A DNA stretch of 64,000 nt from Pontibacter ramchanderi (GTDB lineage: Bacteria; Bacteroidota; Bacteroidia; Cytophagales; Hymenobacteraceae), in the NCBI RefSeq assembly GCF_002846395.1, contig NZ_PJMU01000003.1, positions 186,001 to 250,000 of the forward strand. Reading direction: 5' to 3'. The translations under genes were made by a program, and so were the position numbers. Below the pieces are notes generated by a model that saw nothing but the letters and a program-made list of their open reading frames with translations, made no database searches and was not told the DNA's origin. This document shows positions 10,078 through 51,352 of this stretch, piece after piece. The first letter of the stretch is position 1. The number at the start of each line of letters is the position of its first letter.

Positions 10078-10097
10078 GCTTTCCCGGCCTGCACCAG

Positions 10098-10140
10098 AAA
10101 GGCAGGCTTCATTACAAGTAAATGAAGCCTGCCTTTTTCT
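10098..10140 (+). terminator. Rho-independent terminator after GH20
   Basis: A 16-base perfect inverted repeat, AAAGGCAGGCTTCATT at 10098-10113 and its complement at 10121-10136, encloses a 7-base loop and is followed by a T-rich run. It lies 20 bases after the GH20 stop. The ATG at 10122, the first possible start of the following GH2 frame, is inside the hairpin, which argues against using it. Confidence 0.85.
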
Positions 10141-10202
10141 TTCCGCAGCAATATCCTATTTTTACACTAGCCAAAAGTGTCCAGAACCCTCACCCTGACT
10201 GC

Positions 10203-12887: not shown

Positions 12888-12915
12888 TACGCTAGCGACA
12901 GAGCAACTGAAATGC

Positions 12916-12954
12916 TATACCTGAACGACTTTATACCTTGACAACCCTATACCT
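12916..12954. repeat. Three TATACCT words at 16-base spacing before GH92
   Basis: TATACCT occurs at 12916, 12932 and 12948, each exactly 16 bases apart, in the 79-base gap between the GH2 stop and the GH92 start. The word is over-represented throughout the window, so the regular spacing may be chance or may mark a binding array. Confidence 0.45.
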
Positions 12955-12966
12955 AAAACGAACCCG

Positions 12967-15267
12967 ATGCACCTGAAAGCTTTCTCCAGATTAAAAGCCG
13001 CTTTCGTTGTGCTGGCCTGCATCTTTGCAGCCTGCACAGCCACCCACCAGCAGGACAATCCCTCCTCCACCGCCTCACTGACCAAGTACGTAGATCCCTA
13101 CATCGGCAGCAGCTATCACGGCCATGTGTTCGTGGGGGCCAACGTGCCGTTTGGGGCGGTGCAGCTGGGCCCTACCAACATCACGCAGGGCTGGGACTGG
13201 TGCTCGGGCTACCACTACTCTGACTCCACCATTGTGGGCTTTGCGCACACACACCTTAGCGGCACGGGCATCGGCGACCTGGGCGACATAGCGGTGATGC
13301 CCGTGACGGGCCAGGTGCAGCTTGTGAAAGGCAATGTAAAGCAGCCGAACAGCGGCTACTATTCGCTATTATCGCATGACGAGGAGACGGTGCGCCCAGG
13401 CTACTACGCAGTCAGGCTAAAGCGCTATGATATTGCCGCCGAACTCACCACCACTCAGCGTGTGGGCTTTCACCAGTATACCTTTCCGGCATCAGAGGAG
13501 GCGGGCATCATCATCGACCTGAAGGAGGGCATCGGCTGGGATTCGCCCACCGAAACGTTCATTGAGCAGATCAACGACAGCACACTGGCAGGGTACCGTT
13601 TTTCCAAGGGTTGGGCAAACGACCAGCGCGTCTATTTCACCGCCGTCTTCTCCAAGCCAATCGGCAAGTTCGAGAGTTATCAGGTATACGACACGGCTGC
13701 CACCTCGCCGACGCCAGCCGCTAAAGGCAATCGCATCAAAGGGATAGCGCGCTTTAAAACCCAGCAGGGCGAGAAGGTAAAACTGAAGGTAGGTCTCTCG
13801 CCAGTGAGCACAGAGAACGCCCTAGCAAACATACAGGCCGAGCTGCCCCACTGGAACTTCGACAGGGTGGTGTCCGAGGCCGATGCCGCCTGGAACAAAG
13901 AACTGCAAAAGGTGCGCATCGAGGCCCTGGATTCGGCGCAGCTCCGCACCTTCTACACTGCGCTGTACCATACCCTGATTGCCCCGTCCATCTTCAACGA
14001 CCACAACGGCGACTACCGCGGCACCGACAAAAAAGTATACCGTAACGCTGATTTCACCAACCTGACCACTTTTTCGCTCTGGGACACCTACCGGGCCGCC
14101 CACCCGCTCTACACCATCCTGCAGGCAGACCGCGTAAATGACATGATCAACTCCATGCTGGCCATTTACCAGCAGCAGGGCAAGCTACCCGTTTGGCACC
14201 TGATGGGCAACGAAACCAACACCATGGTGGGCTACAGCAGCGTGCAGGTGGTGGCCGACGCCATCCTGAAAGGTTTTGACGGGTTTGACCACGCCCTTGC
14301 TTACGAGGCCATGAAAGCCACCGCCATGGGTGACGAGTTCGGGCTTACCTGGGTCAAGAAACAGGGCTTTATACCTGCCGACGAGGAGGTAGAGAGCGTA
14401 GCCAAGGGCCTGGAATACGCTATCGCCGACTGGAGCATCGCGCAGGTGGCCAAAAAGATGGGCAAACAGGAGGACTATGCCTACTTCAGTAAGCGCGGTA
14501 GGTACTACGCTAACTATTTCGACCCGCAAACCCACTTTATGCGCGGCAGAATTTCACAAAATGAATGGCGCACCCCGTTTGACCCGTTCCGATCTGAGCA
14601 CCGCAAAGATGACTACTCAGAGGGCAACGCCTGGCAGTATACCTGGCTGGTACCGCAGGACGTGGAGGGGTTAATCAATTTACTGGGTGGCGAAGAGGCT
14701 TTTGCGCAGAAACTGGACTCCCTCTTCACAGTGGAGGGCGATATGGGCGAAGAGGCCTCCAGCGACATTACAGGCCTGATAGGCCAGTATGCCCACGGCA
14801 ACGAACCGAGTCACCATATCACCTACCTATACCCCTACGTGGGCCAGCCCTGGAAAACAGCCGAAAAGGTGCGCTTCATCGTTAGGAACATGTACTCTGA
14901 TAAACCAGACGGATTGATCGGCAACGAGGACGTGGGCCAGATGTCTGCCTGGTACATTTTCTCCACGCTTGGCTTTTACCCGCAGAACCCCGTGAACGGT
15001 GCCTATGTGTTCGGTAGCCCCGCCGTTAAGCAGGCGACGCTCACCCTGCCGAACGGAAAGGTGCTGGAGCTAGAGGCCCTTAACAACAGCCCGGAGAACA
15101 AGTATATCCAGCGGGTAACACTGAATGGCAAGCCCTATACTAAAACGTATGTCCTACACAAAGACCTGATACAGGGCGGCAAGCTGGTGTTTGAGATGGG
15201 ACGCCAGCCGAGCCCTACCTGGGGTGTCGCTAAAGAAGACTGGCCCCGCTCAACACCTGGTGAGTAA
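12967..15267 (+). CDS. GH92 alpha-mannosidase (exo, lipoprotein)
   Basis: A 766-residue GH92 enzyme. The signal ends in VVLACIFAAC, so cysteine 21 or so is a lipidation site and the protein is membrane-anchored. The hallmark start YVDPYIGSSYHGHVFVGANV is followed by PFGAVQLGP and WCSGYHYSD, then FAHTHLSGTG. The barrel carries WDTYRAAHPL, GNETNTMVGY and SSDITGLIGQYAHGNEPSHH, and the end has GNEDVGQMSAWY. GH92 enzymes are calcium-dependent exo-alpha-mannosidases acting on high-mannose and core N-glycan branches. It is the last plus-strand gene of the cluster and converges on the GHL10-like gene. Linkage (1,2, 1,3 or 1,6) cannot be read from the sequence. Confidence 0.93.
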   Translation: MHLKAFSRLKAAFVVLACIFAACTATHQQDNPSSTASLTKYVDPYIGSSYHGHVFVGANVPFGAVQLGPTNITQGWDWCSGYHYSDSTIVGFAHTHLSGTGIGDLGDIAVMPVTGQVQLVKGNVKQPNSGYYSLLSHDEETVRPGYYAVRLKRYDIAAELTTTQRVGFHQYTFPASEEAGIIIDLKEGIGWDSPTETFIEQINDSTLAGYRFSKGWANDQRVYFTAVFSKPIGKFESYQVYDTAATSPTPAAKGNRIKGIARFKTQQGEKVKLKVGLSPVSTENALANIQAELPHWNFDRVVSEADAAWNKELQKVRIEALDSAQLRTFYTALYHTLIAPSIFNDHNGDYRGTDKKVYRNADFTNLTTFSLWDTYRAAHPLYTILQADRVNDMINSMLAIYQQQGKLPVWHLMGNETNTMVGYSSVQVVADAILKGFDGFDHALAYEAMKATAMGDEFGLTWVKKQGFIPADEEVESVAKGLEYAIADWSIAQVAKKMGKQEDYAYFSKRGRYYANYFDPQTHFMRGRISQNEWRTPFDPFRSEHRKDDYSEGNAWQYTWLVPQDVEGLINLLGGEEAFAQKLDSLFTVEGDMGEEASSDITGLIGQYAHGNEPSHHITYLYPYVGQPWKTAEKVRFIVRNMYSDKPDGLIGNEDVGQMSAWYIFSTLGFYPQNPVNGAYVFGSPAVKQATLTLPNGKVLELEALNNSPENKYIQRVTLNGKPYTKTYVLHKDLIQGGKLVFEMGRQPSPTWGVAKEDWPRSTPGE

Positions 15268-15355: not shown

Positions 15356-16447
15356 CTATCCTCTCGCCGAGGCCCGCTCCAGGGCCTGTAGCACCTGCTC
15401 GTTCACATCCCCGAAGATAGAGATACCTGCCGCGCCGTTCTGAAGTGCATACTCCATGCCCTGCTGCAGCTCTTGGTTGTCCTTAAAATCAGGCAGGTAT
15501 AGCCCAGCGTAGAGCGGGAATTTCCCATTCAAGAAGTGCAGTCCCTCTGCCACGGCGTCCCCGATCCAGCGGACGTCCTCTTTGTAGAATCCGTGGTAAA
15601 TCATGGGATATACGGCATTCAGGTTCCAGTTAGTCCAATCCTGGCGCACGATGCGGCGGGCCACCTCGGGCGTCGGGAAAACGGCGGCGGTAATGGGTTT
15701 CTTTTTCTCTTTGGCCACTTCGGCAAGGTGGTTCACAATGGCATTGACTGCGTTGTAGCGGAACAGTCGCCACGAAAGGCTGGCCTCCGGGTACTCCAGT
15801 TCCTCAACAGCCTGCCCACGCCAGGCTTTAAATTTAGCGCGGCATACCTCGCAGTAACAATAATCATATTCCGGCAACTCTTTTGTTTGCTCGATTTTAT
15901 ACGTGTCCCAAAGGTTTACAGGAAGAATCACGTCGCAGAAACGCACGTAGTCCAGGTGGATGCCGTCGATGTAGTCTTTGCTGAGAATGTTGCGCACGTC
16001 CTCGGCCAGGTATTGCTTTACCTCTTCGCGGGAAGGGCATAGCCAGCGGTAGTAGTTGACATAGGGCGGCTTGTCGGCACAGGACTCACCCTTGCGGTTG
16101 CGGGCATACCAGTCGGAGTGCTTTTGCAGGAGCTCTTTCTCACCCCTGTTCATGGTCCACATCCAACGGTGCGCCTCCAGTTTGCTGGCTTTGGCTGCCC
16201 GAAAGTGCTTCTCGCTGTCGGCCTCGAAAAAGATGCCCCGGATACCTGCCTTGTAAAAACGGGCATACTGCTGTTGCAGGTCAGACACCTTGTCTGCTTT
16301 GTTGGGCCTTACCCATACCCAGTGGCGGAGTTCTTTTTTTGCTGCCGTCCCAGTTGCTGCCACAACCCCAAAGGCAGGTGCCGCAGGTATACTGGCCGCC
16401 AGACCGGCCACTACCCCAGCTTTCAGAAAGCTTCTTCTCGATTTCAT
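15356..16447 (-). CDS. GHL10/DUF187-like TIM-barrel protein with Tat signal
   Basis: A 363-residue protein. A twin-arginine signal (KSRRSFLKAG, then a hydrophobic run to about residue 30) predicts export in folded form. The rest looks like a glycoside-hydrolase-like (GHL10 family) barrel: VWVRPNKADK, GIRGIFFEADSEKHF, IDGIHLDYVRFCD (the DYVR motif typical of GHL10) and YCYCEVCRAKF, then NAVYPMIYHGFYKED. No catalytic pair can be assigned with confidence. Its start overlaps the stop of the CBM9 lipoprotein gene by 4 bases, so the two are translationally coupled and may form a pair. The substrate is unknown; the neighbours suggest a glycan or glycopeptide. Confidence 0.75.
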   Translation of the reverse strand: MKSRRSFLKAGVVAGLAASIPAAPAFGVVAATGTAAKKELRHWVWVRPNKADKVSDLQQQYARFYKAGIRGIFFEADSEKHFRAAKASKLEAHRWMWTMNRGEKELLQKHSDWYARNRKGESCADKPPYVNYYRWLCPSREEVKQYLAEDVRNILSKDYIDGIHLDYVRFCDVILPVNLWDTYKIEQTKELPEYDYCYCEVCRAKFKAWRGQAVEELEYPEASLSWRLFRYNAVNAIVNHLAEVAKEKKKPITAAVFPTPEVARRIVRQDWTNWNLNAVYPMIYHGFYKEDVRWIGDAVAEGLHFLNGKFPLYAGLYLPDFKDNQELQQGMEYALQNGAAGISIFGDVNEQVLQALERASARG

Positions 16448-17613
16448 AGGAGACCCTTTATCTTGTGTACAAATCCGTTTTCATTGATACCCCATACCTG
16501 ACCGTCGGTACCCTGTATGGCCGCCATGAATTGCAGCGTGCCCGCCTCCAGCATCATCCGATTTTCCTGCCCCTCTACCTGCACGACAGAGCTCTCCAGG
16601 CCCAGCTCTTTGAGTGATTGGCTATACCTGCCATGCTTGCCAAAGTATTCTTTTTGACGGTAATACACCAGCCACAGGTACTGCTTCTGCCGCTCGGCAT
16701 GGGGCAGGCTAAAAGCAACGGGACTATTCCCAGCAGCTTTTCGTGTGAAGTACAAATAGCCCCACCGCTCTGGCAGGTGCATGTTGACCACTCCCTGCGG
16801 CGACCATACCCAGTTATGCTCTGGCAGTGGTTTCCCGTCTTCGGCTTTGCGCTTAACATACCTGCCATCCTCGACGTCCACATCCCATTGCACCCTTGAG
16901 AAGTTGATGCGCCACAAGGTTCCTTCTTGCGGCACTTTCGTGTGGTTGCCTATGGTCACGGAGCGGAAGGGAATGGCCATTTCCACGGTCCAACCCTCGT
17001 CTGTATCGGTGGTGTTGTTCAGCGTACCCTGTACCTGCACTGCCGACTTCAGCCCATGCATGTCCCAGGCTATCAGGGCGCCATTGTTGTTGCGGTAAGG
17101 CTTGGACATGAACAAATCAAAAATCGTGTTCAACGCATTCACCTCCACCTCAAAGTACTGGTGCGTGTCATTGTCAGGGTCGATGAACACCTCAAAATCG
17201 TTGTCGTGGAAAACCACCTCGTCGTGTTCGGTCAGGGTGGCCCACACATGCGGGTCTTTCAATTCCGCGGCAATGTATAGGTAGGTATTGTCCCAGGCCA
17301 TTTTCACGCGGGTAAGGTAAGACGGCGCTGGTTTTGTGTCGCCCTCTATATCGGTAAAGAGGTCTGTCCAGACGGCCTGTTGCCATACCTCATCATCCAG
17401 GTGCCCATCTATGGCTGGAGCCGTGTCCGTGAAATGGGCAACGTAGTGTCTGGGCTCAGTGAACAGGTGCTCCAGGCCTTCGAAAGGTGATACGGATGAT
17501 AGGGGCTGGCTTATGTAATGGCTGCCCTGCTCCTGCTCAATAGATGAACGTGCCATCTGCGCGCAACCCGCTCCGATAAAGGCCAGAAAAAGCACTATGC
17601 AATATTTTATCAT
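16444..17613 (-). CDS. CBM9-like carbohydrate-binding lipoprotein
   Basis: A 389-residue lipoprotein whose signal peptide ends in FIGAGC, so cysteine 17 is the lipid anchor. From about residue 55 to 280 it resembles the family-9 carbohydrate-binding fold (DOMON-like): TAPAIDGHLDDEVWQQAVW, VKMAWDNTYLYIAAEL, DNDFEVFIDPDNDTHQYFE and GWTVEMAIPF. The last 100 residues do not resemble anything I can name. Such proteins occur beside glycoside hydrolases as surface binding modules. It overlaps the GHL10-like gene by 4 bases. A 161-base gap separates it from the GH29 gene upstream, so it may have its own promoter. Confidence 0.78.
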   Translation of the reverse strand: MIKYCIVLFLAFIGAGCAQMARSSIEQEQGSHYISQPLSSVSPFEGLEHLFTEPRHYVAHFTDTAPAIDGHLDDEVWQQAVWTDLFTDIEGDTKPAPSYLTRVKMAWDNTYLYIAAELKDPHVWATLTEHDEVVFHDNDFEVFIDPDNDTHQYFEVEVNALNTIFDLFMSKPYRNNNGALIAWDMHGLKSAVQVQGTLNNTTDTDEGWTVEMAIPFRSVTIGNHTKVPQEGTLWRINFSRVQWDVDVEDGRYVKRKAEDGKPLPEHNWVWSPQGVVNMHLPERWGYLYFTRKAAGNSPVAFSLPHAERQKQYLWLVYYRQKEYFGKHGRYSQSLKELGLESSVVQVEGQENRMMLEAGTLQFMAAIQGTDGQVWGINENGFVHKIKGLL

Positions 17614-17774: not shown

Positions 17775-19631
17775 TCAATTACTCTCGATGGGCTTTATCT
17801 CCTCCCGGTAGAGCTCCACAGGCCTATCCAACAGTATGGCGATCACGGTCAGGTCATCGTCCAGCAGCTCGTGCGGCACATCGATGTAGGCAATGCCAGG
17901 GATGTCGCTCCAGTACTGCTTGTTGAAAATCTCGTGCCCCAGTAAGGTGCCGTTGCCCACCACCCTAATGCGCTGCAGTTTATTTTTAAGCCCCTTGATG
18001 GCGATAGGCCCTGTGGGTTTGCCTTCCACGAACAGGTATAGCGTCTGCCTGTCCGCTGACAAGGAAGTGGCCCCTTCGTAATGCCCGGCAGGCAGTCCTG
18101 GGGAGGCTTTGTACAGCGTCTCAGCATGTTTGCGCACCCAGCGCTCTACTCCCGCATCGGCCAGCTTCAACTGCTTCACATCCGTGCCGTCTGCCTGTAG
18201 TGAGGTATTCTGGAAAGGATTGTGCCCCGCCTGCAGGTTGTCGGCCAGTTGGCTAATGGTGCGGTTTCGCTGTACATTATCCAACTTACCTGTTTGCTGC
18301 AGTGTCGTCAGCTCCACTTTCGTTTGTTCTGGTAATGTTAATTTCAACGGTTCTTCAAAGAACAGGGCCAGCACTGTCAGCTGTGCATCATAGGCTTGGG
18401 CAGGCACCTGCATGTAGGTGGTGTTTCCCTGCTTTTCATAGCTGGCAACTGCATTGGTCCCCACTACTTTCACCTCTTTCACTGGCGTGGCGAGCCCCTT
18501 CACCCGCACCGATTCCGCTCCCTGATGCTCAACGAACAGGTATAGCGTTTTGCGATCTTTGGATAGGGTGGAGTTACCATGGTAGTGCCCCTCAGGTATA
18601 CCCGCCACCGTCCCGTAAATAGCGTCTGCATGTTTGCCCGTCCAGCGGCCCAGTTCCTTCAGAATCGCCACCTGTTCCTCGGGTATAGTGCCGTCTGGCT
18701 TGGGCCCGATGTCGAGTAACAGGTTGCCGCCGTTGCTAATGCAGTCGGCAAAGGTGCGTATAATCTGGTTGGGGCTCTTGTAGTGACGGTCGTGCGGGGA
18801 GTAGCCCCAAGAGTCGTTCATGGTGAGGCAAAGCTCCCAGTAGGGGTCCTGCGGCCGTACCACAGGCACACCCTGCTCTGGGGTGGCATAGTCGCCGTAG
18901 TGGTTCAGGCGGGAGTTCAGAATCACATTCTGGTTATACCCCAGCAGCATGTCCCGCACCTTAGCCGACTCCCATTCCTCGGCACTGTGCTCCCAGTCGC
19001 CATCGAACCAGTACAGGTCGGGGTTGTAGGTTTTGGAGAGTTCGCGCAGCTGCCCCTGGTAGTAGTGGAGGAACTTCTTCCAGCGGCGCGGCTCCTGGGC
19101 CAGCGTATAGCGTTTTTTGGTCCGCGTGAACACATCGTAATCGGCATGGCTCCAATCAGGCAGCGAGTAGTAGAAGCCCGTCTTCAGGTTCTCTTTCCGC
19201 AGCGCCTCCACAAAGGGTGTGAGCACATCCCGTTTGGCAGGCGTGTGTTTTTGGGTATTGATGCCGCCCATTTTGCTGTCCCAGAGCGCCACCCCATCAT
19301 GGTGCTTGGTGGTGATGACGGCATACCGTGCGCCCGATTCCTTTATCAGCTTCGCCCATGCCGCCGGTTGGTAGTTGGCCGCCGTGAACCCATCGAGCTG
19401 TTTCATGTAGTCCTCGTGGCTGATGTAGTTATTGAAAAAGGACCAGGACTCGGGAATGCCGTTGACGGCATAGATGCCCCAGTGGATGAAGATGCCCAGC
19501 TTAGCGTCGCCAAACCATTGCATTTTATCAGCCTCCTGCGCTGGGTTTGCCTTTTTTGACTGGGCAAAGCAAAAATTACCGCTCAGGGCAAAGAGAACAA
19601 GCAGCCATAGTCTGCACTTCGTTACCATCAT
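17775..19631 (-). CDS. GH29 alpha-L-fucosidase with duplicated C-terminal module
   Basis: A 618-residue secreted fucosidase with a signal peptide at residues 1-24. The catalytic barrel (about 33-328) shows MQWFGDAKLGIFIHWGIYAV, TTKHHDGVALW and YWFDGDW, with D210 the probable nucleophile. The C-terminal half holds two copies of one module: residues about 329-431 (RWTGKHADAIYG, GHYHGNSTLS, KTLYLFVE) and about 497-608 (RWVRKHAETLYK, GHYEGATSLS, QTLYLFVE). Typical GH29 proteins have one such beta domain. The enzyme would release alpha-fucose, probably from the N-glycan core or antennae, to feed the fucose operon. Two overlapping ATGs at 19631 and 19628 are possible starts. Confidence 0.9.
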   Translation of the reverse strand: MMVTKCRLWLLVLFALSGNFCFAQSKKANPAQEADKMQWFGDAKLGIFIHWGIYAVNGIPESWSFFNNYISHEDYMKQLDGFTAANYQPAAWAKLIKESGARYAVITTKHHDGVALWDSKMGGINTQKHTPAKRDVLTPFVEALRKENLKTGFYYSLPDWSHADYDVFTRTKKRYTLAQEPRRWKKFLHYYQGQLRELSKTYNPDLYWFDGDWEHSAEEWESAKVRDMLLGYNQNVILNSRLNHYGDYATPEQGVPVVRPQDPYWELCLTMNDSWGYSPHDRHYKSPNQIIRTFADCISNGGNLLLDIGPKPDGTIPEEQVAILKELGRWTGKHADAIYGTVAGIPEGHYHGNSTLSKDRKTLYLFVEHQGAESVRVKGLATPVKEVKVVGTNAVASYEKQGNTTYMQVPAQAYDAQLTVLALFFEEPLKLTLPEQTKVELTTLQQTGKLDNVQRNRTISQLADNLQAGHNPFQNTSLQADGTDVKQLKLADAGVERWVRKHAETLYKASPGLPAGHYEGATSLSADRQTLYLFVEGKPTGPIAIKGLKNKLQRIRVVGNGTLLGHEIFNKQYWSDIPGIAYIDVPHELLDDDLTVIAILLDRPVELYREEIKPIESN

Positions 19632-19674: not shown

Positions 19675-20439
19675 CTATTCCTCAAATGCTGTGCGCATGG
19701 CACGCACCTGCACTACGTCGGCCACCAGTTGCTCAAACTCCGAAAGGACGCTGTTGCTGGACATGGGCGGGTAGTCTTTGCGGAAAACCATGCCGCTTTC
19801 CACAGCCGTTCGCACCGAGGCATGCACCTCGCTTACCCCTGTTCTGGCCACCAGCTCCCGCACGTTTGCAGGACTCACACCGCCCCCGGGCATAACGCTC
19901 AGCCTACCTGCTGCGCGCCTGTTTAGCTCTTTTATCAGATTAGCCCCCTGCAATGCGGACTCCTGCTGCCCAGACGTAAGCAGACGCTGTACTTTTAGCT
20001 GCAGCAAGTCATCCAAAGCCTTATAAGGGTCTGCCACCAGATCGAAGGCTCGGTGAAAGGTAACGTTCATCGCACCAGCCGCTTCCATCAGTTCCTGCGT
20101 AAGGGCCAGATCAATATTCCCCTCTTTTGTCAGGGCACCGATGACCACGCCATCGACGCCCAGGTCCCGGCAGACCTGTATATCGTGCTTCATGACGGCG
20201 CATTCGGCTGCCGTGTAGAGAAAGTCACCGCGGCGGGGTCGGATAAGGACGTGCAACCCGATGCGGATGCTGTTGCGCACCACCGCGATCATACCCGCAC
20301 TCGGTGTGGTGCCGCCACCCGCCAGGTAGTCGCACAGCTCCACCCGCTGCGCCCCACCCGTCTCAGCAGCCAGGGCCGAGGCGACAGAGTCCACGCATAT
20401 TTCCAGTGTCAGGGGTGTTTTAGAACTTGCTCTTTCCAT
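19675..20439 (-). CDS. cutC: CutC-family TIM-barrel protein
   Basis: A 254-residue CutC-family barrel: LEICVDSVASALAAETGGA, RVELCDYLAGGGTTPS, VLIRPRRGDFLY, DGVVIGALTKEG, TFHRAFDLVADP, LLTSGQ, VMPGGGVSPANV and EVHASVR are all classical for the family. CutC was named for copper homeostasis, but its biochemical role is disputed and no metal site is obvious here. The gene overlaps the aspartylglucosaminidase gene by 20 bases and is 43 bases before a GH29 gene, which suggests a role in handling a glycan breakdown product rather than copper. It has no signal peptide and is cytoplasmic. The family call is secure; the function is not known. Confidence 0.9.
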   Translation of the reverse strand: MERASSKTPLTLEICVDSVASALAAETGGAQRVELCDYLAGGGTTPSAGMIAVVRNSIRIGLHVLIRPRRGDFLYTAAECAVMKHDIQVCRDLGVDGVVIGALTKEGNIDLALTQELMEAAGAMNVTFHRAFDLVADPYKALDDLLQLKVQRLLTSGQQESALQGANLIKELNRRAAGRLSVMPGGGVSPANVRELVARTGVSEVHASVRTAVESGMVFRKDYPPMSSNSVLSEFEQLVADVVQVRAMRTAFEE

Positions 20440-21397
20440 CCAGTAGTTTCACACCAGCATGATCCTGCACGGCGTAGTTAAATCCCTTGTGAATGCAGTA
20501 GCCGCCATATTCGCCTTTTTTGTTCAGGGCGATAAAGCCAACCTGTAGGTCTTTCACGTCTTTGTGCTTGGCGATGATGCGCTCTACTGCCAGGCGGCAG
20601 GCTTTCTCGGGAGAGTTGCCCTGCCGCATCAGCTCCACCACCAGGTGGCTGCCCACCATGCGGATAACTGCCTCACCCAGACCAGTAGCCGTAGCAGCCC
20701 CCACTTCATTGTCCACAAACAGGCCCGCCCCGATGATAGGGGAATCGCCTACGCGACCATACATTTTGTAGGCGGCGCCGCTGGTGGTGCAGGCACCTGC
20801 CAGGTCGCCGTTGGCATCGAGGGCCAGCATGCCGATGGTATCATGGTTCTCGATGTTGATGACAGGCTTGTACTTTGACTCCCGCAGCCAGTTTTTCCAG
20901 TCTTTCTCGGAGGCAGGCGTGAGCAGGTTCTCTTTCGGAAAGCCCTTTTCGAGCGCAAACTGCAGAGCGCCCTCTCCAACCAGCATCACGTGCGGAGTAT
21001 CTTCCATCACTTTGCGGGCCACAGAAATCGGGTGCTTGATGTGTTGTAAAAACGCCACGGCGCCGCAGTTGCTGTCCTTATCCATAATGCAGGCATCCAG
21101 CGTTACGTGGCCCTCCCGGTCAGGGTAGCCGCCGTAGCCCACGGTGCGCACCTCGGGGTCTGCCTCTGGCACGCGCACACCTGCCTCTACGGCATCCAGT
21201 GCGCTTCCTTTTTGGGATAGTATCTCCCAGGCAGCCGCATTGGCAGGTATGCCATGGTTCCAGGTGGAAATCACCACAGGCTTGTTTGTTTTGGCTACTC
21301 CCAGCGTACCAGCAAAGGCGCGCTCAAAAGGAAATCCGCCGCCCAGAATAGTCGCTCCCAGGGCGGATAGTTTTATGAATTTTCGTCTGCTATTCAT
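20420..21397 (-). CDS. N4-(beta-N-acetylglucosaminyl)-L-asparaginase (aspartylglucosaminidase)
   Basis: A 325-residue Ntn-hydrolase with a twin-arginine signal (NSRRKFIKLSALGAT). Autoproteolysis is expected before T187 in HDTIGM, which becomes the nucleophile of the beta chain. The substrate-binding RVGDSPIIGAGLFVD (R215, D218) and GLGEAVIR follow. The enzyme hydrolyses the GlcNAc-Asn bond left when N-glycans are trimmed to the core, and needs a free asparagine amino and carboxyl group. It therefore acts on the last stub after protein digestion, whereas the PNGase at 35608-37545 acts on intact glycopeptide. It is coupled to cutC by a 20-base overlap and follows the GH125 gene by 82 bases. Confidence 0.9.
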   Translation of the reverse strand: MNSRRKFIKLSALGATILGGGFPFERAFAGTLGVAKTNKPVVISTWNHGIPANAAAWEILSQKGSALDAVEAGVRVPEADPEVRTVGYGGYPDREGHVTLDACIMDKDSNCGAVAFLQHIKHPISVARKVMEDTPHVMLVGEGALQFALEKGFPKENLLTPASEKDWKNWLRESKYKPVINIENHDTIGMLALDANGDLAGACTTSGAAYKMYGRVGDSPIIGAGLFVDNEVGAATATGLGEAVIRMVGSHLVVELMRQGNSPEKACRLAVERIIAKHKDVKDLQVGFIALNKKGEYGGYCIHKGFNYAVQDHAGVKLLDGKSKF

Positions 21398-21479: not shown

Positions 21480-22916
21480 TTATGCTCTGGCTTTGAGTAT
21501 ATGTGGTCGTTCGGCATGCAGCTTCAGAATCAACTCACCGAACAACGTATTGGCCCAGGCAAACCACTCCCTGGTAAACTTAGTCGGGTCGTCTTTGTGG
21601 AACGTTTCGTGCATAAAGCCTGTGCCCGCGTGGGTGTTCTTCAGGATCTGCAGGCAGTTCTTTATCTCTTCATCAGACTGGCTGGTCATGGCCTGCATGA
21701 TGATGCTCATCGGCCAGATCATCTCGGGCCCCACATGCGGACCGCCAATGCCCTGCCCTGCCTTGCCCTTGAAGAACCAGGGGTTGTTCTCGCTCAGTAC
21801 AAACCTGCGGGTGTTCAGGTATACGGGGTCGTCAGCGGGGCAGCAACCCAGGTAGGGCAATGAGATCAGGCTTGGTATGTTGGCATCGTCCATAAACAGT
21901 TTGTTGCCGAAACCGTCCACCTCGAAGGGGTATACCTTGCCAAAGTTCAGGTGCTCGGCCACGGCATATTGCTGCAGGGCTTTCTCCACTTCGTTGGCCA
22001 GGGCGGTACACTCGCTGGCGAACGCGCTGTTCTTTTTTATCTGCTGGCTCATTTCAGCCAGTTGTCGCAGCGAGGTAACGGCAAAGAAGTTGGAGGGCAC
22101 CAGAAACAGGTAGATGGTGGCATCGTCGGAGGGGCGAAACGTGGAACAGATCAGACCGACGGGGTTTATCGGAAAGCCGTACCCAGCGCCCGCCACGGTA
22201 TCTGTCTGCTTCGGTGTTTCGCGCTGAAAGGTATAAGGCCCCTTTCCCTCCTTGCGTTGCTGCTCCTTAAAGGTCTTCACGACCAGTCGCATGGCTTTGT
22301 CCCAGTCGGCATCGAAAGGAGCGGTATCCCCAGTGGTTTTCCAGTAGTGGTAGCCCAGCCTGATCGGGTAGCAAAGCGAGTCTATTTCCCATTTTCGCTC
22401 ATGCACGCCGGGCTGCATATCCGTCAGGTCTGTGGCCCATTCCCCTTTTCGGTTCGGGTCGTCATAAAAGGCGTTGGCATACGGGTCTTGGAGGATATAG
22501 CTGGTCTGTCGGTTCACGACGCCAGCCACCAGATGCTGGAGGGCCTTGTCCTTTTTCATCAGGGGCAGGTAAGGCCATACCTGGGCCGAGCTGTCGCGCA
22601 GCCACATGGCATCGATGTCGCCCGTGATGACATAGGTATCGGGGCGGCCGTTTTTCTCACGGTAGGTTACGGTGGTGTCGAGCGTACTGGGGAGACAGTT
22701 CTCGAACATCCAGGCCAGTTCGGGGTCGGCTATGTCTTTTTTCACGTCCCTGATAACCTTTTCAACCGCCTTGCTCGTGAAGTTGCGCTGGGCGCTGGCG
22801 GGGCGCTGGCTCACAAATTTGTCCCGCTGGGTGAACGACATGAACGAAAAGCCTGTAGCGGCGATGCCAGCCGTAGCGAGGGCGCTTGTCTTTACAAAAT
22901 CTCTTCTTGTAGGCAT
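21480..22916 (-). CDS. GH125 exo-alpha-1,6-mannosidase
   Basis: A 478-residue GH125 protein with a Tat-like signal (PTRRDFVKTSALATAG). The family signature DTYVITGDIDAMWLRDSSAQ is followed by VWPYLPL, the QTSYILQDPYANAF motif, WEIDSLCYPIRLGYHYW and GAGYGFPINPVGLICSTFRP, then GGPHVGPEMIWPM near the end. GH125 enzymes are metal-independent inverting alpha-1,6-mannosidases and act after GH92 on the trimannosyl core. Its length matches the family. It lies between GH20 and the aspartylglucosaminidase with gaps of about 100 and 82 bases. Confidence in the family is high. Confidence 0.93.
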   Translation of the reverse strand: MPTRRDFVKTSALATAGIAATGFSFMSFTQRDKFVSQRPASAQRNFTSKAVEKVIRDVKKDIADPELAWMFENCLPSTLDTTVTYREKNGRPDTYVITGDIDAMWLRDSSAQVWPYLPLMKKDKALQHLVAGVVNRQTSYILQDPYANAFYDDPNRKGEWATDLTDMQPGVHERKWEIDSLCYPIRLGYHYWKTTGDTAPFDADWDKAMRLVVKTFKEQQRKEGKGPYTFQRETPKQTDTVAGAGYGFPINPVGLICSTFRPSDDATIYLFLVPSNFFAVTSLRQLAEMSQQIKKNSAFASECTALANEVEKALQQYAVAEHLNFGKVYPFEVDGFGNKLFMDDANIPSLISLPYLGCCPADDPVYLNTRRFVLSENNPWFFKGKAGQGIGGPHVGPEMIWPMSIIMQAMTSQSDEEIKNCLQILKNTHAGTGFMHETFHKDDPTKFTREWFAWANTLFGELILKLHAERPHILKARA

Positions 22917-23018: not shown

Positions 23019-25322
23019 CTATCGCACGATTATTTCATCGGCGAATAGCCAGGCCGCCTCTCCCGCTCCGTTATGGCCCTCCGGCATGGCGGTGAGGTGA
23101 TAAGCCGTTACCCGCACATACTTTGCTTTTTGCCTTGGAAACTCTGCCTTGAAATCGTAAATGGTGGCCTGCTGCACGTTCGGCGAGACTGGGTTTTTCA
23201 CGGTCTTCACCTCTTTGAAATTGACACCGTCGGCCGACACCTCAAACTTCACCGCGGTCGGCAAAAAGATCCAGTCGCGGTAGTGCTGCAGGCAGCCCAG
23301 GGCGATGCTGGAGATGTTTTTTGCCGCTCCCAGGTCTATGGTGGCCACCAGGTCTTTTCGGCTGAAGCCGTGCCAGTATTTGCCCACAGCCTGCCTGCCG
23401 CGCACGCCGTCTGTCAGCGAGTTGGGGCCATCGGCATTGTAGTGCTTGCTCACAGGGTTTTCGTAGTGCACATCCCGCCCGATGGCCTGGTGCATGCTAA
23501 ACGACTGCTCTGCCGGTTTCAGCCCCATCACCTTGCCCTCCACCACGGTCACTGCCTTCAGCACCACCGACGAGTCGATTGGAATGGCTTGCGTATACCT
23601 GCTGCTTTGCGTGGTGGGGGCTGAGCCGTCCAGGGTATAGTATATGTCCCCGTTCATGGCTTCGGTAAAAAGACTCACGGTGAGCTTACCCCCCGCTGAA
23701 CTTGGTTTGATATCCACCGTGAAATTGCCTTTGGAGTAGTTCAATCCTTTTTGGTCAAAAGCCCTGAACTGGGGTTGCAGGCGTCTGTTGAAACTTCCCC
23801 AGTCACGGCTCCCCGGTGGCGACCAGACTACCTCGGCCAGGGCCAGCATGCGGGGCAGCACCATGTACTGTAAGTGCGATGGTGTGGTGATGTACTCCGC
23901 CCACACATTGGCCTGCGCACCCAGCACGTGCTTTGCCTCGGCTGCCGTAAGTTCCTTAGGTATAGGCTCATAGTCGTACACTTTCTTCAGCGTGTTGAAT
24001 CCCCCGATGGCCAGTGGCTCTCCTTCCGGGCCAGCCTGGTACTGGTCGAAATACACGGGGTTGCCAGGCGTCATGATGACGTCGTGCCCCATCTTGGCCG
24101 CCTCTACCCCTCCGCTCTCGCCGCGCCAGCTCATCACGGTGGCCTGCGGGGCCAGTCCTCCTTCCAATATCTCATCCCACCCAATGATGCGGCGCTTCTT
24201 TGTGAGCAGGTAGTTTTCCATGCGCTTGATGAAGTAGCTCTGCAACTCCTCCACGTCCGCAAGCCCTTCGGCGGCCATGCGTTGCTGACATTTCGGGCAC
24301 TTCTTCCACCCTGATTTGTCTACCTCATCGCCGCCGATGTGCACATACTGCGAAGGGAACAGCTGCACCACCTCGTCCAGCACATCCTCCAGAAACGTAT
24401 ACACCGCTTCGTTGCCCGGGCAGTAGTTGGAGGCCATGTTGGTATAGTCGCCGCCCGTGAGTGGGAGCTGTGACTTTCCTTCGCAACTCAGGTGTGGGTA
24501 AGCGGCAATGGCAGAAGCCACGTGACCTGGCATCTCAATTTCCGGCACCACGGTTACGTTGCGCTGTGCGGCATAGGCCACTATTTCTTTCACCTGCTCC
24601 TGGGTATAGTAGCCTCCGTAGGTGGGTTCATCTCCTGGCCTGGCCTGCGGTCTTGCATCCCAGGGTTTGTCGGTGTGGTCCACACGCCAGGCGCCCACCT
24701 CGGTCAGTTTCGGGTATTTCTTGATTTCAATGCGCCAGCCCTGGTCGTCTACCAAGTGCCAGTGCAGGGTGTTCAGTTTATAGGCTGCCATCAGGTCGAT
24801 GTACTGCTTCACGACCGCTGGTGAGAAGAAGTGACGGCTCACATCCAGGTGCATACCGCGCCAGGCAAAACGGGGGTAGTCCGTTACGGTCATAGCGGGC
24901 ACTTGCAGCGCCGCGTTGGTACGCACGGCTGGCAGTGTTTGCAGCACTGTCTGTATGCCGTATACAATGCCTGCTTTAGTATTGGCCTTTATGCTTATCC
25001 TGGCAGGTGTCACCTCTAGGGTATACCCTTCTGGCCCTAAACCTTCTATGCGCTCAAGGGTCAGGCTGATTGTTTTGCCTTTACCCTTTCGGATGGGAAG
25101 TTCGTGGCCGGATAGCTCGCTGATGCGTGCCGCCAGAAACGCAGCGGCGGGCTTCAACTCCTTTTTTTCATTTTCCAGATATATAACAGTCTCCCTGTCA
25201 ATCACGAAGCTGCCGTCGTGGTGAGCTATGCGCACAGGTTGCGGTATGATGCCTGCAGGCTCCTGCGCCAGTGCCAGCAGGGGAATCAAAAATGCGAGTA
25301 GAAGGGGAATCCGCTTTATCAT
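23019..25322 (-). CDS. GH20 beta-N-acetylhexosaminidase (second)
   Basis: A 767-residue enzyme with a signal peptide (LLLAFLIPLLALAQ), a GH20b domain, and a barrel starting at RGMHLDVSRHFFS. TLHWHLVDDQGWRIEI and catalytic D332-E333 in HIGGDE follow. The C-terminus repeats the layout of the first GH20: YTLDGSAPTTQSSRY (chitobiase-C/fn3-like) and a discoidin-like end. It carries a C-x-x-C pair right after the catalytic motif (KKCPKCQQRM), as does the first copy. The two paralogues lie in separate transcription units and may differ in linkage preference. It removes terminal GlcNAc or GalNAc residues. Confidence 0.93.
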   Translation of the reverse strand: MIKRIPLLLAFLIPLLALAQEPAGIIPQPVRIAHHDGSFVIDRETVIYLENEKKELKPAAAFLAARISELSGHELPIRKGKGKTISLTLERIEGLGPEGYTLEVTPARISIKANTKAGIVYGIQTVLQTLPAVRTNAALQVPAMTVTDYPRFAWRGMHLDVSRHFFSPAVVKQYIDLMAAYKLNTLHWHLVDDQGWRIEIKKYPKLTEVGAWRVDHTDKPWDARPQARPGDEPTYGGYYTQEQVKEIVAYAAQRNVTVVPEIEMPGHVASAIAAYPHLSCEGKSQLPLTGGDYTNMASNYCPGNEAVYTFLEDVLDEVVQLFPSQYVHIGGDEVDKSGWKKCPKCQQRMAAEGLADVEELQSYFIKRMENYLLTKKRRIIGWDEILEGGLAPQATVMSWRGESGGVEAAKMGHDVIMTPGNPVYFDQYQAGPEGEPLAIGGFNTLKKVYDYEPIPKELTAAEAKHVLGAQANVWAEYITTPSHLQYMVLPRMLALAEVVWSPPGSRDWGSFNRRLQPQFRAFDQKGLNYSKGNFTVDIKPSSAGGKLTVSLFTEAMNGDIYYTLDGSAPTTQSSRYTQAIPIDSSVVLKAVTVVEGKVMGLKPAEQSFSMHQAIGRDVHYENPVSKHYNADGPNSLTDGVRGRQAVGKYWHGFSRKDLVATIDLGAAKNISSIALGCLQHYRDWIFLPTAVKFEVSADGVNFKEVKTVKNPVSPNVQQATIYDFKAEFPRQKAKYVRVTAYHLTAMPEGHNGAGEAAWLFADEIIVR

Positions 25323-25449: not shown

Positions 25450-27003
25450 TTACTCCTGTTTGTTGGCTGAATAGTTTGCCCCAGAAAGGGCGTTCTTGTA
25501 CAGTCCAATTTCCGAAATGGTCGGGTTCAACCGCGATGACGCAATGCGCAGCCTTACTTTACTGGCCGTTACAGGCTCAAAACGTAGCAGTCGTTTGTAG
25601 CCGACGGTGGTACCCTCGGTTGCCTTTTGCCACTGCCCTTCCTTCCAGTACTCAAACGTGAACTTTTCAATGCGCTGTCCCACGCTGATGTTTTCCTGTA
25701 GCATCAGCACGTCGAAGGTCTGCTCTCCTTTGAGCCGCAGTTCAATAATGGCGGTGGTATCTTTTGCGGATTTGGTCGTAAAGTGCGTATCGTACTTGCC
25801 GTCGAGCAGGGCGTGCTTGTTCCTACCCGCCGCTTTCACTTTGGCTCCGTTCGCAAAGTTCCTCGCAAAAGTGTCTTGGCGCAACTTGGCCCAACCCTGT
25901 AGTGCTTTCACATCGCTTTCATGGATCAGCCCCCGGGTGTCGGGTGGAATGTTGAGCAGGAGCACGCCGTTGCGGCCCACCGAGCTGTAATAGATGTCCA
26001 GCAGCTTCTCGGGCGACTTCACTTTATCGTCTTCGCCCGGGTGGTAGAACCAGCCCGGACGAATGGACACGTCTGTTTCGGCGGGGTACCATACAAGTCC
26101 CTTGGCGTTGCGGATCTTTTCACGGCTGCCCAAAACTTCCCCGCGCATGTCGCCCTGCGGCTTAAAGGCAACGGCTTGCTGCGAATTGGCCGCCACAGCT
26201 TCCTGTTCCAGGTTATCGGCAGGCACAACACTCCACTCAGTTTCGCGTCCGTAGCCCGTCTCGGTGCCCACCCAGCGCACATCGGGTCCCATAATGGCAA
26301 TCGTGGCCGTGGGCTGCAGCTTGCGGATGTGCCTGTACCAGCGGTCGAAATCGTATACCTGCTTTTTTCCGTTTGGTCCCTCACCGTTGGCACCGTCGAA
26401 CCACACTTCATCTATCTGGCCGTAGTTTGTCAACAGTTCCGTCAGCTGCGCCACAAAGAGGTCGTTATAGGCGTCGGTGCCGTACACGGGTGAGTTCATG
26501 TCCCAGGGCGACAGGTATACGCCTACCCCAAGCCCATACTCCTGGCAGGCCTCCACGACTTCCCGCATCACATCGCCTTGCCCGTTCTTCCAGGGGCTGT
26601 TCTTTACCGAATGCTCCGTGGTGGCAGTGGGCCAAAGACAGAAGCCATCGTGATGCTTGGCTGTCAGGATCACCTGCTTGATGCCCGCTTCCTTGGCCAC
26701 GCGCACCCATTGGCGGGCATCGAGCTGGGAAGGATTGAAAATTTTAGGATCTTCCTTTCCCGTGCCCCACTCCCGGTTGGTAAAGGTATTGACGCCGATG
26801 TGGAAGAAAGCGGTGAGTTCCAGCTGCTGCCAGCGCAGCTGCCGGGGTGTTGGCACCACGTTCGCAGCTTTGCGGATGATGTCGGACTCGGTGTCATTCG
26901 GGCGGATGATATAGAAGTTTTGTTTATCGTCTGTTCCCTGTGCCAGCACCTGGGGTGAAGTGACCAAAAGGATGCACAACATGCCAGCCACCAGACATTT
27001 CAT
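25450..27003 (-). CDS. GH29 alpha-L-fucosidase (second), with discoidin-like tail
   Basis: A 517-residue fucosidase. The ATG at 27003 gives a clean signal peptide (MKCLVAGMLCILLVTSPQVL), while the longer reading from 27048 adds 15 residues that overlap a tandem repeat. The barrel shows RQLRWQQLELTAFFHIGVNT, ILTAKHHDGFCLWPT and EVWFDGANG, with D203 the probable nucleophile. The residues around the active site differ from the first GH29, so it may belong to the other GH29 subfamily (narrow versus broad linkage). The tail (from about residue 390) looks like a discoidin-type binding domain. It is secreted to the periplasm or surface. Confidence 0.9.
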   Translation of the reverse strand: MKCLVAGMLCILLVTSPQVLAQGTDDKQNFYIIRPNDTESDIIRKAANVVPTPRQLRWQQLELTAFFHIGVNTFTNREWGTGKEDPKIFNPSQLDARQWVRVAKEAGIKQVILTAKHHDGFCLWPTATTEHSVKNSPWKNGQGDVMREVVEACQEYGLGVGVYLSPWDMNSPVYGTDAYNDLFVAQLTELLTNYGQIDEVWFDGANGEGPNGKKQVYDFDRWYRHIRKLQPTATIAIMGPDVRWVGTETGYGRETEWSVVPADNLEQEAVAANSQQAVAFKPQGDMRGEVLGSREKIRNAKGLVWYPAETDVSIRPGWFYHPGEDDKVKSPEKLLDIYYSSVGRNGVLLLNIPPDTRGLIHESDVKALQGWAKLRQDTFARNFANGAKVKAAGRNKHALLDGKYDTHFTTKSAKDTTAIIELRLKGEQTFDVLMLQENISVGQRIEKFTFEYWKEGQWQKATEGTTVGYKRLLRFEPVTASKVRLRIASSRLNPTISEIGLYKNALSGANYSANKQE

Positions 27004-27046
27004 GCCACCACAAAGGCAAGTTGAATATGGGTATTGTATTCTCAGC

Positions 27047-27078
27047 ATCAGTTTATCGTAAAATCAGTTTATCGTAAA
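27047..27078. repeat. Tandem 16-base direct repeat upstream of GH29
   Basis: ATCAGTTTATCGTAAA occurs twice in direct succession with no mismatch, 44 bases upstream of the GH29 start. It could be a doubled operator or a replication slip. I found no third copy in the window. Confidence 0.6.
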
Positions 27079-27231: not shown

Positions 27232-28770
27232 TCAGGAGTTCCCACTGCCTTTCTCCAGTAGCTGCCTGGCTTCGTCATCCTCGTACTTTTTAATCATTTC
27301 GCGCAATTGGCTTCTGAGTTTGGCGGTAATTTTCTCATAGCCCTTTTGCCCGTACAAATTATTCATCTCCTGCGGGTCTTTCTCGAGATCATACAGTTCC
27401 CACGACTCCACTCTTTTGTAGAAACGAATCAGCTTGTAGCGTTCCGTCCTGATGCCGAAGTGAGGTGATACAGCGTGCTCGCCGTTCTCATAGTAGTGGT
27501 AGTACATGGCTTCGCGGCCCTTGGCCCTAGGCTGTTGCAGGTATTTCAGAAAAGACTCGCCCTGCATCTCGTTCGGGATGCGCACGCCGGCTGCATGGAG
27601 CATGGTAGGGGCTATGTCGAGGTTCATCACAAACTGCCCCAACTGTGAGCCTGGCTTGACCACAGCGGGCCAGCGCACCACCATGGGCGTGCGGAACGAC
27701 TCCTCGTACATGAAGCGCTTATCAAACCAGCCGTGCTCCCCCATGTAAAAGCCTTGGTCGGAAAGGTACAGCACAAGGGTATTTTCGGCGAGCCCGTGCT
27801 GGTCTAAGTAGTCCAGCATACGGCCGATGCTGCGGTCCATGGAGGCAGCTGTGGCCAGGTAGTCACGCATGTAGCGCTGAAACTTCCACTCCACCAATGC
27901 CTTGCCCTGCAGGTTTTGGGCCATCAGGTCTTCATAGATAGGCTTGTAATAGGCCTTAAACCTGGCTCGCTGAGCTTCGGTCATGCGGGTGATGTTACCG
28001 TCGCTGATCTTGTCGTAATCGGGGAACATCTTCAGGTCATATCCCATGATCATGGTTTTGTCTATGGTCATGTCCTGCACAGTGGCGGCCTCGCGGTTTT
28101 TGTAATGATCGTAGAAGTTGGCGGGCAGCGGAAAGGTCTTGCCATCGAAGATCCCCATGTCATTGAGGTCGGGCATCCAGGTACGATGCGTCGCCTTGTG
28201 GCCGATCACGAGAGCAAAGGGTTTAGTCTTGTCACGGCTGTCCAGCCATTCCTCTGCCACATCCTGTGTCAGACTTGACACATACCCCTCGATGCGCTCG
28301 CGGCTGCCGTCCATGTTAATAAAGTCCGGGTTAAAGTAGTGGCCCTGCCCCGGTAGTATTTTCCAGTAGTCAAAGCCCTGCGGTTCAGTTTCCAGATGCC
28401 ATTTGCCCACCCAAGCTGTTTGGTAGCCGTTGTGGCCCAGTTCTTTCACAAAGGTGTTCTGGCTCCCGTCGAAGCTGGAGTTTTCGTTGTCCTTGAAACC
28501 GTTTTTGTGGCTGTACTTACCCGTCAGGATCACGGCACGGCTTGGCCCGCAGATCGAGTTGGTAACATAGGCCTTGTTCATGATCGCCCCTTCCCGGGCG
28601 ATGCGATCTATGCTGGGCGTCTGCATCAGATTGCCGCCATAGGCACTGATGGCTTGGTAGGCATGGTCATCAGACACAATGATGACAATGTTGGGCCGCT
28701 TGGCGGGTTGCTGTGCGTAAGTAGAGAATCCGTACCCTAATACCGTGATCAGGCATAAAAAAGTCTTCAT
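27232..28770 (-). CDS. Type I (formylglycine) sulfatase
   Basis: A 512-residue sulfatase. The ATG at 28770 gives a normal signal peptide (KTFLCLITVLGYGFSTYAQ); the longer form from 28791 is less likely. The start PNIVIIVSDDHAYQAISAYG carries metal-site aspartates. C74 in CGPSR, followed by TGKYSHKNGF, is the site converted to formylglycine, so an anaerobic or aerobic maturase must be encoded elsewhere. HGWFDKRFMYEES is also typical. The ISAYGG and TNSICGPSR wording resembles GlcNAc-6-sulfatases (S1_11), but the subfamily is only a guess from memory. It would remove sulfate from GlcNAc or GalNAc so that GH20 can act. Confidence 0.9.
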   Translation of the reverse strand: MKTFLCLITVLGYGFSTYAQQPAKRPNIVIIVSDDHAYQAISAYGGNLMQTPSIDRIAREGAIMNKAYVTNSICGPSRAVILTGKYSHKNGFKDNENSSFDGSQNTFVKELGHNGYQTAWVGKWHLETEPQGFDYWKILPGQGHYFNPDFINMDGSRERIEGYVSSLTQDVAEEWLDSRDKTKPFALVIGHKATHRTWMPDLNDMGIFDGKTFPLPANFYDHYKNREAATVQDMTIDKTMIMGYDLKMFPDYDKISDGNITRMTEAQRARFKAYYKPIYEDLMAQNLQGKALVEWKFQRYMRDYLATAASMDRSIGRMLDYLDQHGLAENTLVLYLSDQGFYMGEHGWFDKRFMYEESFRTPMVVRWPAVVKPGSQLGQFVMNLDIAPTMLHAAGVRIPNEMQGESFLKYLQQPRAKGREAMYYHYYENGEHAVSPHFGIRTERYKLIRFYKRVESWELYDLEKDPQEMNNLYGQKGYEKITAKLRSQLREMIKKYEDDEARQLLEKGSGNS

Positions 28771-28814
28771 TATAGCATGTCGCTGTATCATGTAGCCTGG
28801 AATTAAAGGGTAAA

Positions 28815-45180: not shown

Positions 45181-45223
45181 AGAAATTGATTTGTGTAAAA
45201 TGTAGCTATAATGGGTAGGGCTA

Positions 45224-46405: not shown

Positions 46406-46419
46406 ATAAATAGATAATC

Positions 46420-48507: not shown

Positions 48508-48646
48508 GACAGCGTAAGTAAACTATACCTTTGCCCGCATTTATATCCTAGCAAGGGTATAGCAGTTGTTTATCGGATCATCTCCTGCACGTTGCAAATG
48601 TTTATTTTATTGCTGGATGCCATCGTTTGACGAGCAAGCTCAAAAA

Positions 48647-51343: not shown

Positions 51344-51352
51344 AGGTCAGTG

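Follow-up and report, generated by a model that had tools for sequence, protein, structure and literature searches.

A cutC gene overlapping a glycosylasparaginase gene in a Pontibacter N-glycan locus, and the recurrent association of the two families in bacteria

The 64,000-nucleotide stretch of the Pontibacter ramchanderi genome analysed here (the window; RefSeq assembly GCF_002846395.1, contig NZ_PJMU01000003.1, positions 186,001 to 250,000 of the forward strand) contains a cutC gene whose start lies within the end of a gene of family PF01112 encoding a glycosylasparaginase or aspartylglucosaminidase-type protein (AGA, used below for gene or protein). An earlier note on this DNA had pointed to the 20-base overlap of the two genes, to a glycoside hydrolase family 29 (GH29) gene close behind cutC, and to a glycan operon around them, and each of these observations was borne out. 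Surveys of other genomes, given below, link cutC to genes for the core of N-glycans, chiefly AGA, in the phylum of the window (Bacteroidota), in Xanthomonadaceae and in some Pasteurellaceae. The features of the locus are as follows.

19675-20439, minus strand: cutC, 254 amino acids, PF03932; ATG at 20439, stop ending at 19675
20420-21397, minus strand: AGA of the glycosylasparaginase type, 325 amino acids, PF01112; twin-arginine-type N-terminus, autoproteolysis site before residue 187
20420-20439, minus strand: overlap of the AGA 3' end with the cutC 5' end, 20 nucleotides (nt) in different frames, read from the DNA
17775-19631, minus strand: GH29 alpha-L-fucosidase family protein, beginning 43 nt past the cutC stop
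21480-22916, minus strand: GH125 mannosidase family protein, 82 nt upstream of AGA
23019-25322, minus strand: GH20 beta-hexosaminidase family protein (Pfam match)
25450-27048, minus strand: second GH29-type protein, with an F5/8 domain (Pfam match)
27232-28791, minus strand: sulfatase with an SGSH-type C-terminus (domain match)
29001-30905, minus strand: SusD-like lipoprotein (domain match)
30926-34051, minus strand: SusC-like TonB-dependent receptor, plug domain (domain match)
15356-17613, minus strand: CBM9-domain protein and GHL10 protein, overlapping each other by 4 nt; end of the operon
34122-35339, minus strand: ROK family protein, kinase or regulator (domain match)
35608-37545, minus strand: PNGase-F-like protein, in which only the N-glycanase_C domain (PF09113) scores
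37660-57265, minus strand: remaining glycan locus, with LacZ-type GH2, alpha-galactosidase, GH123 and a second SusD/SusC pair
44017-52294, minus strand: sialic-acid cassette, comprising a sialidase-like BNR protein, N-acetylglucosamine (GlcNAc) 2-epimerase, GDSL/sialate esterase, a NanM-like domain joined to an SSF transporter, and a DHDPS/NanA-type lyase
7723-15267, plus strand: GH20, GH2 (Ig_GlcNase/mannosidase type) and GH92, convergent with the operon

The operon, on the minus strand, leads from the SusC-like and SusD-like genes through the sulfatase, GH29-type, GH20 and GH125 genes to AGA, cutC, GH29, the CBM9 protein and the GHL10 protein. The ROK gene, the PNGase-F-like gene and the block from the LacZ-type GH2 through the second SusD/SusC pair lie upstream of it in the same direction. 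Pfam E values for open reading frames (ORFs) of the window are 1.1e-89 for Alpha_L_fucos, 4.6e-177 for GH125 and 1.9e-128 for GH20. With its SusC/SusD pair and co-directional glycan enzymes, this is a predicted polysaccharide utilization locus, and by family it holds the enzyme set for N-glycans: sialidase-like protein, LacZ-type GH2, GH20, GH92, GH125, GH29, PNGase-F-like protein and AGA. Going by family membership, these proteins could cover whole complex N-glycans, from the sialic acid to the sugar-asparagine bond. The GHL10 protein at the end of the operon has a twin-arginine-type start.

The CutC of the window is a CutC-family protein, matching PF03932 with an E value of 1.3e-71 and 240.7 bits against a curated cut-off of 23.3. 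It falls outside the NCBIfam equivalog NF008603 (PRK11572, 'copper homeostasis protein CutC'), where it scores 243.8 bits, below the cut-off of 311. Its best solved relative is human CUTC (3iwp, 232 bits), the Shigella protein scoring 170 bits, and the closest cutC among the named genomes is that of Pontibacter mucosus at 77% identity. No extension resembling an export signal was seen at the N-terminus of the window CutC. AGA matches PF01112 (Asparaginase_2) with an E value of 1.2e-71 and is of the glycosylasparaginase type, giving about 1e-135 against glycosylasparaginase structures and 1.5e-41 against the best isoaspartyl peptidase. Its autoproteolysis site reads HDTIG in the ORF, residue 187 is where the alignment with the PDB beta chain 1ayy_B starts, and the N-terminal Thr is in place. 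At the N-terminus of the protein is an RR-x-F-hydrophobic export signal; 55 of the 59 AGAs at the loci examined match a simple pattern for it, and the others are a lipoprotein-like protein (L104), a signal-less protein of Histophilus (L186), a truncated one (L181) and one in a doubtful frame (L062). Because AGA carries a predicted export signal and CutC does not, the product of AGA would have to cross the inner membrane.

The gene overlap suggests that AGA and cutC may be co-translated. The earlier note had taken the overlap itself as a sign of related products, a step that does not hold up on its own, since a -20 junction occurs only in the window and in two further loci (L108 and L109), all three of the Pontibacter type. 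The 45 same-strand AGA-CutC junctions span -167 to +146, lengths that depend on first-start ORF calls and are unreliable at the extremes.

Among 247 genomes drawn from Bacteroidota, 76 encode CutC. The surroundings of 78 cutC loci, the window included, were examined over up to 20 kb each (less for L051, L062, L065, L073 and L078), two genomes having two copies. AGA lies within four genes of cutC at 38 of the 78 loci, a distance that is approximate because genes were picked from the ORFs by a greedy procedure, and within 1 kb at 36; it is directly upstream on the same strand at 28 and divergent at 5. By a rough estimate, a single AGA in a genome of 4 Mb would fall within 1 kb of cutC with a probability of about 0.001, and the pairing is not due to chance. 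At L095 the genes follow one another as PNGase-F-like (N-glycanase_C), AGA, CutC, GH92, GH29, GH29, and sugar kinases stand beside the pair in Chitinophaga (ROK, L130), Stenotrophomonas (glucokinase, L166) and genome G491 (glucokinase, L228). In a second scan, of 80 CutC loci kept from named genomes, AGA is within four genes at 20, or at 21 counting L164, whose cutC was lost by the gene picker and whose AGA was found separately. The recurring non-glycan neighbours of cutC (RNase Y, transglutaminase, FabH, metallophosphatase and others) were considered as an alternative explanation by synteny and set aside, as they have no visible common theme. No CutC-AGA fusion was seen at the loci examined, among which no dedicated search for one was made; long open frames in the CutC matches of the phylum and Xanthomonadaceae draws were read as frame lengths and not as fusions.

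When the window AGA is used as query against the 247 genomes, proteins of the glycosylasparaginase type stand apart from those of the isoaspartyl-peptidase type (threshold, a best-E exponent of -54 or lower, the next genome being at 5e-48). The glycosylasparaginase type is present in 75 of 76 genomes with CutC and in 46 of 171 without it (Fisher p 1e-29, kinship ignored); in the window's own class the counts are 50 of 51 and 0 of 10. Where a CutC genome has no AGA within four genes of cutC, it nearly always carries one elsewhere (37 of 38), and in G029 this 'elsewhere' is about 10 kb from cutC, just beyond the stretch read. GH92, taken as a control for general N-glycan use, occurs in 51 of 76 CutC genomes against 40 of 171 others, and in 38 of 51 against 5 of 10 within the class. 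Since this control is weaker, CutC tracks the enzyme for the GlcNAc-Asn bond more closely than it tracks mannose trimming. Two genomes of the draw, G138 (L063, L092) and G150 (L061, L089), have one cutC copy beside AGA and another that is not, and offer a chance to study functional divergence of CutC. In G037 cutC is broken by two in-frame stops, so that its two rows represent one locus (L078), and the genome retains a glycosylasparaginase elsewhere.

The association extends to two families of Gammaproteobacteria. A class-wide draw of Gammaproteobacteria had CutC above the cut-off in only 4 of 185 genomes, too few to use, and family-level draws took its place. Among 119 genomes of Xanthomonadaceae, the family of Stenotrophomonas tumulicola (G282), CutC and glycosylasparaginase (at least 356 bits, the next match being 143) occur in the identical 41 genomes and are adjacent in 39; GH20 is found in all 41 of these and in 14 of the 78 others. 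Among 101 genomes of Pasteurellaceae, the Histophilus family, 34 have CutC above the cut-off (G632, which falls below it, was left out of the counts). A PF01112 match to the Histophilus protein occurs in 9 genomes, all with CutC, and in 7 of them within 2.5 kb of cutC. Gene surroundings were read in six of these nine genomes, and in none of the six does the PF01112 protein show an evident export signal. Its gene in Histophilus (L186) and G609 (L221) is divergent from cutC and stands with genes for a phosphotransferase system (PTS) EIIC component and an M17 aminopeptidase; in G631 (L224) it is accompanied by PTS EIIC, EIIB, EIIA and M17, with cutC on another contig. These three sets possibly encode a GlcNAc-Asn PTS. 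The EIIB and EIIA of L224 are of the lactose/cellobiose type. In G665, G615 and G660 (L219, L220, L222) the PF01112 gene is found with ATP-binding cassette (ABC) transporter parts, M17 and a GHL6/fucosidase-like hydrolase, and cutC lies convergent at the end of the set. The PF01112 proteins of these three loci are 34-38% identical to the Histophilus protein, and that of L222 is only moderately nearer to glycosylasparaginase structures (1e-32) than to isoaspartyl peptidase structures (2e-25). The operon of these three loci looks like an uncharacterised fucosyl-GlcNAc-Asn route.

What kind of protein is CutC? The predicted model of the window protein (pLDDT 94.1) has the (beta/alpha)8 fold of solved CutC structures and superposes on human CUTC (3iwp_D) with a Z score of 38.0 and a root-mean-square deviation of 1.4 over 243 residues. 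E13, R32, E34, R67, R69, H129, D133 and H206 are retained in 155-158 of 158 CutC sequences, and in the model these near-invariant residues are placed in the barrel strands or a few residues after them. The strand ends of the barrel are where TIM-barrel active sites are built. The nearest non-CutC folds are MfnB (Z 21.3) and HPS-PHI, a hexulose-phosphate synthase (Z 20.6), with DERA and PdxJ also present; the absence of a family from such fold lists does not exclude it. As these neighbours are phosphate-binding enzymes of sugars and cofactors, the model may hint at a small, phosphorylated substrate for CutC. DERA raised the idea of a Schiff-base aldolase, which was rejected as there is no Lys among the invariant residues of CutC.

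Taken together, gene content, neighbourhood and predicted fold lead us to propose that the CutC of the window probably works in the cytosol as an enzyme for the breakdown of the N-glycan core (GlcNAc-Asn) and is not primarily a copper-handling protein. The suggestion of the earlier note, that CutC processes a sugar or amino-sugar product of N-glycan breakdown, is partly supported: the survey favours a link to the N-glycan core, but a simple hand-over of product from AGA to CutC is not supported, the two proteins differing in export signal. The products of glycosylasparaginase are Asp and 1-amino-GlcNAc, and PNGases likewise release glycosylamines. In the mechanism that we envisage, PNGase and glycosylasparaginase would each free the glycosylamine 1-amino-GlcNAc from asparagine, and this amine, or its 6-phosphate formed through a kinase- or PTS-linked transporter, would enter the cytosol; in the window, where AGA has an export signal, its product would be imported before CutC acts. 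CutC would then convert the amine to GlcNAc (or GlcNAc-6-phosphate) and ammonia. A paper on the alf-2 pathway of Lactobacillus casei (PMC6960285) names 1-amino-GlcNAc as an intermediate, in the part of its text consulted, and deems this last step spontaneous. A cytosolic hydrolase of the amine or its 6-phosphate fits the gene neighbours, the compartments seen in Pasteurellaceae and the optional nature of CutC. Hydrolysis of 1-amino-GlcNAc or its 6-phosphate as the exact reaction is nonetheless a tentative proposal, which we hold to be less likely than not. Still more doubtful is the widest version, in which the whole CutC family, human CUTC included, would be glycosylamine or glycosylamine-6-phosphate hydrolases clearing the 1-amino sugars of glycosylasparaginase and PNGase, the copper label being an artefact of a small-RNA neighbour in E. 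coli.

A number of observations weigh against a core-directed role. The window AGA was used to search 50 genomes, corresponding to 50 of the 80 named loci and mostly those without an adjacent AGA: 23 have no match, 14 of them Bacteroidales and four of them Betaproteobacteria (Deefgea, Chitinibacter, Iodobacter and Chitiniphilus); 15 show weaker matches only; and the glycosylasparaginase type (E < 1e-52) is found in only 11, or 12 with a split match in G259. Conversely, 46 genomes of the phylum draw have a glycosylasparaginase without CutC. In Pasteurellaceae, the Histophilus PF01112 protein has no match in 25 of the 34 genomes that carry CutC. The neighbours of cutC in E. coli K-12 are torY and yecM, and the 12 kb inspected there contain no glycan gene (a PF01112 protein of E. 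coli was matched in a control search). The window AGA has an export signal and CutC none. The co-occurrence counts were taken across genomes without correction by a species tree, and the 41 Xanthomonadaceae genomes are not independent events because the two genes adjoin and move together. The conversion of 1-amino-GlcNAc to GlcNAc is called nonenzymatic in L. casei in the consulted part of PMC6960285. The 23 genomes without a match rule out a universal CutC-glycosylasparaginase rule, and the many CutC genomes without AGA imply that in many bacteria CutC either serves more widely or draws its substrate from elsewhere. The association with N-glycan core genes is recurrent, in three lineages, and not universal.

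The alternative that survives best is that CutC is a general isomerase, epimerase or lyase of sugars or sugar phosphates in hexosamine metabolism that has been recruited next to a range of enzymes releasing GlcNAc, glycosylasparaginase being only its commonest partner. This has a possible but minority claim on our belief. It would account for the Bacteroidales CutC without a glycosylasparaginase match and for a fold nearest to phosphate-sugar barrels, as well as for glycan neighbours other than AGA: GH20 is within four genes at 12 of the 80 named loci, and GH20, GH2 and GH92 at 6, 6 and 4 of the 78 loci. However, GH92 and GH20 track CutC less closely than glycosylasparaginase does, and GlcNAc is commonly catabolised by bacteria whose genomes lack CutC.

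That CutC is a copper-homeostasis protein merely expressed with glycan genes is improbable. The window protein has both C15 and C36, which we take to be counterparts of the cysteines of the proposed human CUTC copper site. C36 is retained in 155 of 158 CutC sequences and C15 in 117, the column having no Cys in the other 41, whereas the acid/base residues are near invariant; we also know of no family of the operon that is a copper enzyme. Some Cys does occur within two positions of position 15 in 135 of 158 sequences, so a loss of the copper site is not evident, which is a point in favour of copper beside the family name. So are several published results. In the part of the overexpression study available, cutC is among the top genes whose overexpression benefits E. 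coli in copper; the same paper ascribes this to the sigma-E response, citing work on MicL, a small RNA that originates from the cutC region. In E. coli K-12 the annotated micL gene overlaps the 3' end of cutC. A review, as far as its text was available, describes weak Cu(I) binding by human CUTC and calls it an unlikely chaperone, yet retains a role for CUTC in copper homeostasis, and reports greater copper sensitivity after RNA interference of cutc-1 in C. elegans and after depletion of human CUTC in HepG2 cells. The earlier note had called the copper role disputed; in animals a copper link is still reported, and given the worm and human-cell results we do not dismiss it there.

Least likely of all is that the AGA-cutC pair is an old operon spreading without a functional link: on a quick tree of 158 CutC sequences AGA adjacency takes a minimum of 13 changes, compared with 46.3 when shuffled, a clustering that such hitch-hiking would produce, but at least five of the changes are forced by supported branches, the arrangements vary (co-directional, divergent and convergent), and the co-occurrence holds in 37 of the 38 genomes without an AGA within four genes of cutC. 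Judging from this tree, adjacency is clustered by clade yet has been repeatedly gained or lost.

CutC spans bacteria to humans and several of its structures have been solved, and to our knowledge it has no agreed function. Its tight tie to AGA, seen in more than a single lineage, narrows what had been a loose label to a few candidate ligands, which could be tried on human CUTC as well. It also draws attention to a step in N-glycan catabolism which the L. casei pathway paper holds to be spontaneous. Among the matches listed, openly licensed literature, as represented by titles and the beginnings of abstracts, contained no proposal of a sugar role for CutC. The neighbourhood of cutC and N-glycan genes is already partly in print for Xanthomonas, and the same searches turned up neither the enzyme reading, nor the co-occurrence in three lineages, nor the candidate substrate.

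How does the window compare with systems already described? Its CutC shares the whole domain, the fold and the near-invariant residues of family PF03932 (human CUTC 3iwp; Shigella 1twd and 1x7i); the family is described under copper homeostasis, whereas the window cutC sits in an N-glycan locus with AGA. The AGA of the window matches the glycosylasparaginase of Flavobacterium/Elizabethkingia (1p4k, 1ayy) over its mature length with an E value of 1.2e-135. The closest published neighbourhood is the nix cluster of Xanthomonas, in which N-glycan genes are clustered together with cutC (XAC3091), described as copper resistance (PMC6718126). The asparaginase XAC3092, the next tag number, has been related to N-glycan breakdown (PMC5700972), and the examined parts of the nix papers list cutC under copper resistance and propose no sugar role for it. 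The alf-2 pathway of L. casei differs from the window in that the available main text of PMC6960285 does not mention cutC and in that its glycosylasparaginase is cytosolic, unlike the AGA of the window with its export signal. The likeness lies in the combination of a transporter, a GH29 fucosidase, a peptidase, a glycosylasparaginase and a sugar kinase, and among the loci described here it is the three Pasteurellaceae operons with ABC-transporter parts, each with cutC convergent at its end, that resemble this pathway for fucosyl-GlcNAc-Asn, as set out in the accessible part of the same paper.

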